Part shown: positions 7,473-14,517 of the stretch, in pieces
Layout of the letters: each line of letters begins with the position of its first letter
How positions within the stretch are numbered: the first letter of the stretch is position 1
Source of the DNA: an uncultured Bacilli bacterium
GTDB lineage: Bacteria > Bacillota_I > Bacilli_A > RF39 > UBA660
Assembly (NCBI GenBank): GCA_944363735.1
Contig: CALVVB010000008.1
Span: 1 to 34,628 of the forward strand
Reading direction: 5' to 3'
Length of the DNA stretch: 34,628 nucleotides
Notes under the pieces: model-generated
The model's database searches: none
Told to the model about the DNA's origin: nothing
Seen by the model: the letters and a program-made list of their open reading frames with translations, nothing else
Position numbers and translations under genes: made by a program

Positions 7473-7549
7473 GGGCGATTAGCTCAGTTGGTTAGAGCAC
7501 TTGCCTTACAAGCAAGGGGTCATAGGTTCGAGTCCTATATCGCCCACCA
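7473..7549 (+). tRNA. tRNA-Val (anticodon TAC)
   Basis: GGGCGAT pairs with ATCGCCC. The anticodon stem-loop TTGCC..GCAA carries TAC and the T loop is GTTCGAG. CCA is encoded. First of ten genes in the array. Confidence 0.97.
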
Positions 7550-7562
7550 TTTATTATATGTT

Positions 7563-7638
7563 GCCGAAATAGCTCAATTGGTAGAGCAACTGATTTGTAA
7601 TCAGTAGGTTACGGGTTCGATTCCTGTTTTCGGCACCA
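7563..7638 (+). tRNA. tRNA-Thr (anticodon TGT)
   Basis: GCCGAAA pairs with TTTCGGC. The anticodon loop between CTGAT and ATCAG carries TGT. CCA is encoded. Confidence 0.97.
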
Positions 7639-7650
7639 TTTTATTATGTC

Positions 7651-7734
7651 GGAGAGATAGCGAAGTGGCTAAACGCGACAGACTGTAAATCTGTTCCTTC
7701 GGGTTCGATGGTTCGAATCCATCTCTCTCCACCA
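7651..7734 (+). tRNA. tRNA-Tyr (anticodon GTA)
   Basis: GGAGAGA pairs with TCTCTCC. The anticodon is GTA, with a long variable arm as expected for bacterial tRNA-Tyr. CCA is encoded. Confidence 0.97.
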
Positions 7735-7757
7735 TATTTTAGTTTTATTATTAATAT

Positions 7758-7832
7758 TGCCTCGTAGCCAAGTGGTAAGGCATCAGACTTTGACTCTGAC
7801 ATGCGTTAGTTCGAATCTAACCGAGGCAACCA
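7758..7832 (+). tRNA. tRNA-Gln (anticodon TTG)
   Basis: The acceptor TGCCTCG pairs with CGAGGCA, giving the weak U1-A72 pair typical of tRNA-Gln. The anticodon loop between CAGA and TCTG carries TTG. CCA is encoded. Confidence 0.95.
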
Positions 7833-7846
7833 TCTGATTTGTATTT

Positions 7847-7922
7847 GATCCGCTAGCTCAGTCGGTAGAGCATTTGACTTTTAATCAAAGGGTCATGAGT
7901 TCGAATCTCATGCGGATCACCA
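7847..7922 (+). tRNA. tRNA-Lys (anticodon TTT)
   Basis: GATCCGC pairs with GCGGATC. The anticodon loop CTTTTAA carries TTT. CCA is encoded. Confidence 0.97.
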
Positions 7923-7931
7923 TTTATTTGT

Positions 7932-8020
7932 GCCTGAGTGGCGGAATTGGTAGACGCACAGGACTTAAAATCCTGCGAGGGTTATACCTCGTGCCGGTTC
8001 AAGTCCGGCCTTAGGCACCA
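7932..8020 (+). tRNA. tRNA-Leu (anticodon TAA)
   Basis: GCCTGAG pairs with CTTAGGC (one G-T). The anticodon is TAA, with a long class II variable arm. CCA is encoded. Confidence 0.97.
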
Positions 8021-8035
8021 CTATTTATTGTTTAT

Positions 8036-8128
8036 GGAGGAATACCCAAGTCTGGTTGAAGGGACCGGTCTTGAAAACCGGGAGGTCGTGCAAACGGCGC
8101 AGGGGTTCGAATCCCTTTTCCTCCGCCA
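8036..8128 (+). tRNA. tRNA-Ser (anticodon TGA)
   Basis: GGAGGAA pairs with TTCCTCC, with a G discriminator. The anticodon is TGA, with a long class II variable arm. CCA is encoded. Confidence 0.97.
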
Positions 8129-8143
8129 TTTAGAATTTTATAT

Positions 8144-8219
<76 letters not shown>

Positions 8220-8220
8220 T

Positions 8221-8297
8221 GGTTCCGTGGTGCAGCTGGTTAACACGTCTGCCTGTCACGCAGAAGATCGCGGGTTCGAGCCCCGTCGGAACCGCCA
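8221..8297 (+). tRNA. tRNA-Asp (anticodon GTC)
   Basis: GGTTCCG pairs with CGGAACC. The anticodon loop CTGTCAC carries GTC, with a G discriminator. CCA is encoded. It begins 2 nt after the fMet gene. Confidence 0.97.
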
Positions 8298-8307
8298 TTT
8301 TTTTATT

Positions 8308-8383
8308 GGCTTCATAGCTCAGTCGGTAGAGCAAGGGACTGAAAATCCCTGTGTCGCTGGTTCGATTCCCGCTGGAGCCACCA
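8308..8383 (+). tRNA. tRNA-Phe (anticodon GAA)
   Basis: GGCTTCA pairs with TGGAGCC. The anticodon loop CTGAAAA carries GAA. CCA is encoded. Last of the array. Confidence 0.97.
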
Positions 8384-12961: not shown

Positions 12962-13013
12962 TTGCAAAAATAAAGAGTTATTAGTATACTAAACTTTGAA
13001 AGGAATAGATACT

Positions 13014-13811
13014 ATGTATAGAAAAAGTAAAAAAAGAAGAAAAATTATTATTATCATTATAGTTATAATCATAGCATTTTTTGTTTTATTTTACTCTCTA
13101 TCATCTAATAGAAAACTAACAGCAGTAGAGTCATTCTTTAAGGATGCTGCCACTATTGTGATGAAAGGAGTAATGTTACCATTTACGTCTCTAAATGCTC
13201 AAAAAGATACTGATTTAACAGAAAGTTATGTAATCCAAAAGAATTTAAATGTTCATTTAGAAGAAGAAATAGAACAACTACGTGATGCTTTAGATTTAAA
13301 TCAGACTTTAACTGGCTATGATGTAGTTAATGCAACTGTCATATCAAGAAATAGAAGTTATTGGTATCAGACTTTAACGATAGATAAAGGTAGTAAAGAT
13401 GGCTTAAAGAAGAACATGGTCGCTATTACTAAAGATGGACTTATTGGTAAACTACAGAATGTTACTAATTATTCTAGTGAAGTAAAACTAATCACTGCCA
13501 ATGATGTAAATAATAAAGTATCTGTTTCTATCGCTACGACAACAGGAGAGACTACTGCCATACTTAGTGGTTATGATAAAGAAAATAACTTAGTATTAAT
13601 TAGTGGAGTAGATAGCAGGGTAGAAATTAACAAAGGTGATGTAGTAACAACTAGTGGACTAGGTGGAATGTTTCCAAGAGGAATATATATAGGAGAAGTA
13701 GAGACTATTACTAATGATAAGTATGGATTAAGTAAAACTTTAGGAGTAAAGACAAATCAAAACTTTAATAATATTCACTATGTTACTGTCCTTAAGGAGG
13801 AAAAACAGTAA
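13014..13811 (+). CDS. mreC: Rod shape-determining protein MreC
   Basis: Bitopic protein of the elongasome that links the cytoskeleton and cell-wall synthases. A basic stretch RKSKKRRK leads into a membrane helix (residues ~10-30). A coiled-coil segment (~75-100, NLNVHLEEEIEQLRDALDL) and the beta-rich MreC core (VISRNRSYWYQTLTIDKGS, GLIGKL, TTSGLGGMFPRGIYIGEV) follow. ATG 13014 follows AAAGGA by 9 nt. mreB, which usually comes just before it, is absent at this locus. The last codons contain a perfect AAGGAGG (13794-13800) with no start codon after it. Confidence 0.94.
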   Translation: MYRKSKKRRKIIIIIIVIIIAFFVLFYSLSSNRKLTAVESFFKDAATIVMKGVMLPFTSLNAQKDTDLTESYVIQKNLNVHLEEEIEQLRDALDLNQTLTGYDVVNATVISRNRSYWYQTLTIDKGSKDGLKKNMVAITKDGLIGKLQNVTNYSSEVKLITANDVNNKVSVSIATTTGETTAILSGYDKENNLVLISGVDSRVEINKGDVVTTSGLGGMFPRGIYIGEVETITNDKYGLSKTLGVKTNQNFNNIHYVTVLKEEKQ

Positions 13812-14016
13812 AAAGTCCGGTTTTCTTGAAAAAAAGTCCGGTTTTCTTGAAAAAAAGTCCGGTTTTCAATTATAAATTATGTATTATAACTTGAGACAAA
13901 CTTAAAAATTATAAATGTAATGAGAGAAAATATAAAGAAAGGAATATGATAATAAGCAGTTAATATTAATACACATTCTCTCTTGTAATTAACTAAGTAT
14001 TATCATAAATGATAAT
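13810..14016 (+). repeat. Structured insertion between mreC and mreD with three 21-bp repeats
   Basis: About 207 bp separate genes that normally abut. The left part has three copies of a 21-bp unit (GTCCGG at 13815, 13836 and 13857) containing the palindrome TTTTCTTGAAAA. The right part has a long hairpin: ATGATAATA (13946-13954) with TATTATCAT (13998-14006), a 4x4 internal loop, then GTTAAT (13959-13964) with ATTAAC (13988-13993). The hairpin loop TTCTCTC (13976-13982) can pair with upstream GAGAGAA (13922-13928), suggesting a pseudoknot. A possible promoter TTGAAA-18-TATAAA overlaps the repeats. Confidence 0.6.
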
Positions 14017-14517
14017 GTGATATTTCAAATAATAATAGTTGTAATATCTTTCTTTTTAGATGGCATCCTAAGTAATTTTCTTCCCTATATGATGGGAGAT
14101 TTATCTTTATTTACTCCATACTTTACTTTAATTAGTCTTGTTATAATTTATCCATTCTTTAAGAAAAAAGATAAAGATTATTATATTCTAGTAGGAATAA
14201 CAGGATTTCTTTATGATTTATTCTATACAAATCTTTTATTTACCCATGCTATTTTCTTTTTATTAATAGGACTAATAGTAAGTTTTATCTATAAGAAAAT
14301 GGAACTTAATCTTTTAACTAACTTATTTTTGACTATATTAGTAATAGTAATATATCAAACTATTTTCTCTCTTAGTCTATTTATCTTTAATGTAGTACCT
14401 GTTTCTATAGAAAGTACTCTTTATTTAATATACAATAGTCTAATACTAAATATTATCTATGGAGAAATACTATATTTAATTTGTAAATATATGCCACATA
14501 AAAGACATTTAAACTGA
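14017..14517 (+). CDS. mreD: Rod shape-determining protein MreD
   Basis: A 166-aa polytopic protein with about five membrane helices, part of the MreBCD elongasome. The acidic/aromatic pattern (FFLDGILSNFLP, GFLYDLFYTNLLFTH, NSLILNIIYGEILY) is that of MreD. The start is GTG 14017, which has no good ribosome-binding site now. Joined directly to the mreC end it would have AAGGAGG 7 nt upstream and a TGA/GTG overlap. A terminator overlaps the stop. Confidence 0.85.
   Translation: MIFQIIIVVISFFLDGILSNFLPYMMGDLSLFTPYFTLISLVIIYPFFKKKDKDYYILVGITGFLYDLFYTNLLFTHAIFFLLIGLIVSFIYKKMELNLLTNLFLTILVIVIYQTIFSLSLFIFNVVPVSIESTLYLIYNSLILNIIYGEILYLICKYMPHKRHLN

Follow-up and report, generated by a model that had tools for sequence, protein, structure and literature searches.

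A 209-bp insert between mreC and mreD in an uncultured Bacilli bacterium is very probably an ORF-less remnant of a compact mobile Schlafen cassette

Results

The mreC/mreD junction of the window

The window, i.e., the whole 34,628-nucleotide stretch analyzed here, carries mreC and mreD on the plus strand, with an insert of 209 bp between them (Table 1). The mreC ORF is open from a TTG at 12996 in the ORF listing, and the ATG at 13014 is the likelier start. Its 3' end reads ...AAGGAGG-AAAAACAG-TAA, with the TAA at 13809-13811, and, as an earlier note on this DNA had described, 209 extra bases follow AAGGAGG before the mreD GTG at 14017. Elsewhere in the window, ten tRNA genes form a dense cluster on the plus strand (7473-8380).

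Table 1. Coordinates of the features at the mreC/mreD junction of the window
Feature	Position	Strand	Basis
mreC	13014..13811	+	PF04085 / TIGR00219 matches, ORF listing; TAA stop extends into the insert edge
Whole insert; 209 bp longer than the empty mreC/mreD junction in relatives	13808..14016	+	Junction compared in 30 genomes
Cassette left end: three 21-bp units AAAAAGTCCGGTTTTCTTGAA, the third degenerate	13810..13872	+	In genome G030, this array lies ahead of the intact ORF
Residual cassette DNA after ORF loss; contains SD-like AAAGAAAGGA at about 13934-13943	13873..13944	+	By-eye comparison of junctions L006, L007, L009, L010, L012, and L015
63-bp inverted repeat between the SD-like sequence and mreD	13945..14007	+	No counterpart in any other insert form or elsewhere in the genome
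mreD (GTG start, 14017)	14017..14517	+	TIGR03426 above cut-off; Pfam MreD just below cut-off

The three 21-bp repeats pointed out in the earlier note are far from chance. Two of the units are identical and one stands at 81%, and a 30-mer across two units occurs twice in the window and in none of 100 dinucleotide shuffles. The long hairpin is likewise real as an inverted repeat, its 20-nt arms (13945-13964 and 13988-14007) being 85% complementary. The pseudoknot that was also suggested found no support, and neither did a strongly folded leader: folding of the whole insert is ordinary on the plus strand (z = -0.8) and weak on the minus strand (z = -2.0). In addition, Rfam searches of the insert returned nothing credible at curated or permissive thresholds, and scans for sigma-70 promoters and terminators at the junction gave chance-level results. 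The search for further copies in the same genome, a check put forward in the earlier note, found none, so that the insert is single copy; the 21-bp units were not found elsewhere in this genome either. One weak 46-bp match in contig 6 lies inside a coding region and was dismissed as chance.

Empty and filled alleles across the genus

We compared the site across a same-genus sample of 35 genomes, 30 of which gave an mreC match. The other five (G006, G014, G024, G029, and G031) gave none, through either incomplete assembly or gene loss, and three of them are 92% complete. The junction is compact in 20 of the 30 genomes, with insert lengths of -4 to +3 and mostly exactly 0 (L008, L013, L014, L016, L017, L020, and others). 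Exact empty sites occur even in a genome (G034) whose MreC is 99.3% identical to that of the window, which bears out the proposed splitting of the junction by an insertion. Moreover, the sequence AAGGAGG-AAAAACA-GTG, restored on paper by removing 13808-14016, exists in relatives as a compact AAGGAGG-AAAAACA-GTG-ATA, and the predicted GTG/TGA overlap is present at most compact junctions of the genus.

The remaining ten genomes are filled: G000 (the window), G007, G030, G022, G013, G025, G010, G001, G023, and G028, the last of which has a contig that ends inside the 21-bp array. Insert lengths at the junction are 89, 119, 132, 139, 160, 209, and about 1650 bp, and a further remnant of the 89 type was found in G029, on a contig starting just before it. 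All inserts start at one identical point with the same 21-bp array in 2-5 copies, and all readable right ends except that of the window consist of GAAAGGAAAGTGATTAT before the mreD GTG. A conserved long spacer shared by relatives was also looked for and was not observed.

In the mreC and mreD trees, the filled alleles form two related groups. Empty alleles nest within both of them, which suggests one old insertion followed by losses or by local recombination. This topology also weighs against a cassette, as nested exact empty alleles require precise loss or local recombination, and no clear target duplication is recognizable at the mreC/mreD site itself.

Translation of mreD

The SD-like sequence of the window is common to other insert forms and probably serves mreD. 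Relatives with the older insert form have AAAGAAAGGA-AAGTGATTAT-GTG ahead of mreD. Compared with the G007 form, the window insert has 7 extra bases and the 63-bp inverted repeat (13945-14007); its AAGGA and 9-10-nt spacer are similar to those of G007 and are parted only by the hairpin. The earlier note had regarded mreD as devoid of a ribosome-binding site. This is true linearly, because the hairpin separates AAGGA from the spacer, but a folded hairpin would again place AAGGA about 10 nt from the GTG, as in relatives. The inverted repeat, which is present in this genome only, is hence a possible hairpin-bridged ribosome-binding site for mreD.

These features would be expected if the insert were a conserved cis-regulatory leader tuning mreD translation: an SD-like sequence is common to the insert forms, and folding of the window hairpin would restore the spacing to the start codon. 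We nevertheless consider such a leader highly improbable, given that length (89 to 209 bp), sequence, and copy number vary, most relatives lack the insert, the fold energy is ordinary, and Rfam gave no match. The regulatory role offered in the earlier note is without support.

An intact cassette encoding a Schlafen-type protein

At the same junction point, G030 harbors a full cassette of about 1.65 kb, in which a promoter region and an intact ORF of 480 aa follow the array; mreD comes next. The ORF matches SLFN_AlbA_2 (PF04326; 83.2 bits, cut-off 25.3, E 3e-23) and HATPase_c_4 (PF13749; 90.5 bits, cut-off 26, E 7e-26), and weak profile matches together with the predicted structure indicate a C-terminal winged helix. 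Its AlphaFold model (mean pLDDT 81, pTM 0.54) retrieved DIP2311 (E 1e-21) and SLFN13 (E 9e-5) in Foldseek, a profile search also found SLFN chains, and the fold agrees with DIP2311 and the Schlafen N-domains. Residues E10, D15, and D49 are nearly invariant in ORF alignment A2, the second acidic position being D, not E, in most members; they were matched by spacing and order only to the SLFN13 carboxylate triad E205/E210/D248 (PMC5862951). In addition, dN/dS values of 0.06-0.12 show that the ORF evolves under purifying selection.

A domain search recognized no recombinase gene in the cassette, of which the Schlafen-type ORF is the sole ORF, and no DDE transposase was found. Terminal inverted repeats are not present either: the cassette ends are not inverted copies, and the palindromes are internal.

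PADLOC reported matches of the ORF to pAgo-associated models and a weak match to PDC-S72. The winged helix (ORF residues 391-480, L113:6171-6440) matches the end of this PADLOC candidate, and other single-gene candidates may share the same DNA-binding end. PMC12839542, citing a 2025 preprint, describes the Schlafen RNase-GHKL-wHTH type as widely disseminated near BREX and linked to anti-phage defense. By homology, the intact ORF is predicted to be a phage-defense effector of this known type. The window copy has no defense function, since no gene is left there.

Distribution of the family and its palindromic repeats

We scanned GTDB contigs and found 33 ORF relatives; apart from the G030 record, 8 are close, at 62-75% identity. 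Whole-genome searches revealed members with at least 59% identity in 12 of 386 genomes from 11 genera, with further members order-wide; the family and order draws contained twelve full-length and three truncated relatives at this level (at least 59%), at unrelated loci. ORF identity across the family is 59-78%, and each genome has a single such copy. These genes stand alone, downstream of dacF, thrS, lysS, a gene for a membrane protein, and others (names assigned by eye from translations). A phage origin was considered and rejected: viral contigs lack the array and yielded only one relative, which is 49% identical. Phage and plasmid records contain mostly distant Schlafen-type genes.

Palindromes of type AAAAAGTCCGGTTATAAGCGGACTTTTT or AAAAATGTCGCTTATAAGCGACATTTTT lie upstream of nearly all family genes and, in some cases, downstream as well; in the clade of the window, the 21-bp array is built of half-palindromes. 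Pairs kept via changes on both sides numbered 18 cells, compared with 6.6 +/- 2.0 in shuffled data, and none of 500 shuffles was as high. In the stem, 92% of cells are paired, a percentage that would alone be biased, as the structure was written from the same sequences. In the same genomes, AlbA_2 genes of lower identity (23-36%) are for the most part free of comparable palindromes and flanking repeats, so that both features are particular to the close clade. Between the repeats and the ORF, about half of the members have a promoter-like GACA-N-TATAAT block.

The tandem repeats sit immediately before a predicted RNase gene and outlast the ORF in every remnant, which recalls a type III-like toxin-antitoxin system, in which the array would be the RNA antitoxin, kept after loss of the Schlafen RNase toxin. 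We regard this as very unlikely: the promoter-like block, seen in about half of the members, separates the repeats from the ORF, many members have one or two palindromes and not an array, repeats also occur 3' of the gene in L119, L120, and L168, and the protein does not belong to the ToxN type.

Two further observations concern other Schlafen genes and their surroundings. A second Schlafen-type group in the genus (445 aa; L093-L095 and L098) is preceded by a palindrome of its own, AATATGTAAATTTCTTTTACATATT, and flanked by direct repeats of 10-19 bp, and may represent another such cassette. In L120 and L130, a 784-aa protein that resembles a TOTE-type helicase-primase by eye only is encoded downstream of the Schlafen gene; this neighbor in two genomes suggests a defense neighborhood.

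Target duplications around the cassette

In G364, the cassette lies after dacF between two copies of a terminator-containing stretch of about 40 bp; in G416, whose flanks are 97% identical, the stretch occurs once and the cassette is absent. Similarly, the cassette of G234 lies between two copies of a 46-51-bp stretch, of which G323 and G106 have one copy. For comparison, the longest exact repeat shared in 3000 random window pairs was 21 bp. Filled and empty alleles together with a target-site duplication, the broad criteria of a mobile element, are found in two other genera; good empty-site controls exist for these two insertions only, both in genera other than that of the window. A 21-30-bp repeat flanking the cassette around a terminator in G035/G181 stands without an empty-site control. 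An apparent insertion inside dacF (L115/G166) was set aside, as its left flank is at a contig end and not interpretable.

Both clear duplications include terminators, so similar terminators could contribute to them, and short partial matches to the duplicated stretch of G364 and to its surroundings occur at other places in that genome. The uninterrupted comparison sites, however, oppose an account by similar terminators. Against mobility stands the single copy per genome, with no transposition burst. Target duplications of 40-51 bp are exceptional, and the only precedent found was IS1634/IS1549, with 8-514 bp (PMC2266710).

Decay into remnants

Several copies have lost most of their ORF. At the mreC/mreD site, G023 (L035) keeps the first 11 codons (MGLNDYEKIEN versus MSLNDYDKIEN), after which the deletion follows. 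At other loci, an array with a deleted ORF was found in G173, G031, G372, and G250: in G173 the first 22 codons are fused to the last ~26, and in G031 the array is accompanied by a degraded C-terminal part. The remnants of G372 (L207) and G250 (L214), from two genera, have repeats fused to the last ~85 ORF codons at nearly the same point, apparently via microhomology between a palindrome arm and the ORF. These derivatives suggest either that deletion through microhomology recurs or that a short form is mobile. The window remnant fits the pattern of an array plus a deleted ORF. Its residual DNA after the array is not alignable with certainty to the G030 cassette. Most of the genomes are metagenome assemblies, in which tandem arrays break contigs.

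Discussion

Collectively, these data make it very probable that the window insert is a decayed, ORF-less remnant of a compact mobile Schlafen cassette once inserted at mreC/mreD. The small mobile element postulated in the earlier note is thus right as to origin but not as to the unit, since the 209 bp are an internally deleted remnant of a 1.65-kb cassette. From left to right, the intact cassette comprises repeats with a palindrome-derived core, a promoter region, and one Schlafen-type gene. It would enter intergenic DNA, often at transcription terminators, and duplicate 40-50 bp of the target; internal deletion would often follow, with the repeats outliving the gene. In the window copy, loss of the ORF would have been followed by insertion of the 63-bp hairpin and a 7-bp change. 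We postulate that the winged helix may bind the palindromes, for autoregulation or end recognition, that the palindromes may also act as two-way terminators, and that movement may be self-encoded or provided in trans.

It is possible, if doubtful, that the Schlafen defense gene and its operator are a passenger, carried by homologous recombination or by the machinery of another element, with the palindromes being only operators or two-way terminators. Consistent with such a passenger, the cassette encodes no recombinase, the repeats lie upstream of the conserved GACA-N-TATAAT block in many copies, as operators or insulating terminators would, and allelic recombination could account for the exact empty alleles found among filled ones; PMC12839542 also presents Schlafen RNase-kinase-wHTH genes as widespread defense genes. 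Homologous recombination nonetheless leaves unexplained how a bare gene came to lie at unrelated loci with local target duplications of 40-51 bp, and the scarcity of palindromes and flanking repeats around distant AlbA_2 genes of the same genomes also argues against a passenger. Our confidence in the passenger and in the mobile cassette overlaps, because they differ only in what moves the cassette.

That the Schlafen-type protein itself mobilizes the cassette, recognizing the palindromic repeats and inserting its own gene with 40-50-bp target duplications, seems unlikely. If true, it would constitute a class of transposable element without a DDE, serine, tyrosine, HUH, or reverse-transcriptase enzyme, and a defense gene that moves itself.

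Abundant in bacteria, Schlafen-type genes have been linked to phage defense, and, to our knowledge, the route by which lone Schlafen-type genes spread has not been established. Our search of the open-licence literature, preprints being outside its scope, returned no account of Schlafen/AlbA_2 genes as mobile cassettes. Our data indicate that one Schlafen clade moves as a cassette of one bare gene, marked by conserved palindromic repeats and by target duplications of unusual length, and one locus displays the course from an intact copy through remnants to an empty site. Either the protein self-mobilizes, which would make it a new kind of transposable element, or a trans-acting machinery moves the cassette. 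Footprints of lost defense genes would also explain tandem arrays and spacers that are otherwise puzzling in conserved operons.

Comparison with known systems

Type III toxin-antitoxin systems (ToxIN) resemble the cassette in that a predicted RNase gene follows short tandem repeats; in the cassette, however, the repeats precede the promoter-like block, occur also after the gene, and take the form of an array or a palindrome, and the protein fold is unrelated. Like MITEs and other internally deleted elements, the window insert is a short remnant without coding capacity in which the ends of a larger element persist, but it is single copy per genome, lacks terminal inverted repeats, and gives no sign of short-form movement. 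Long target duplications are common to the cassette (40 and 46-51 bp) and to IS1634/IS1549 (8-514 bp), from which the cassette differs in its protein and in having neither a DDE transposase nor terminal inverted repeats. The bacterial Schlafen RNase-GHKL/histidine-kinase-like-wHTH defense proteins (COG2865 type, BREX-linked) share with the cassette protein the domain order AlbA_2, HATPase_c_4, and winged helix, as well as acidic E10, D15, and D49 at about the spacing of SLFN13 E205/E210/D248. In contrast to these proteins, the gene described here, for which defense is predicted, stands alone with palindromic repeats at scattered intergenic sites and is associated with long target duplications.
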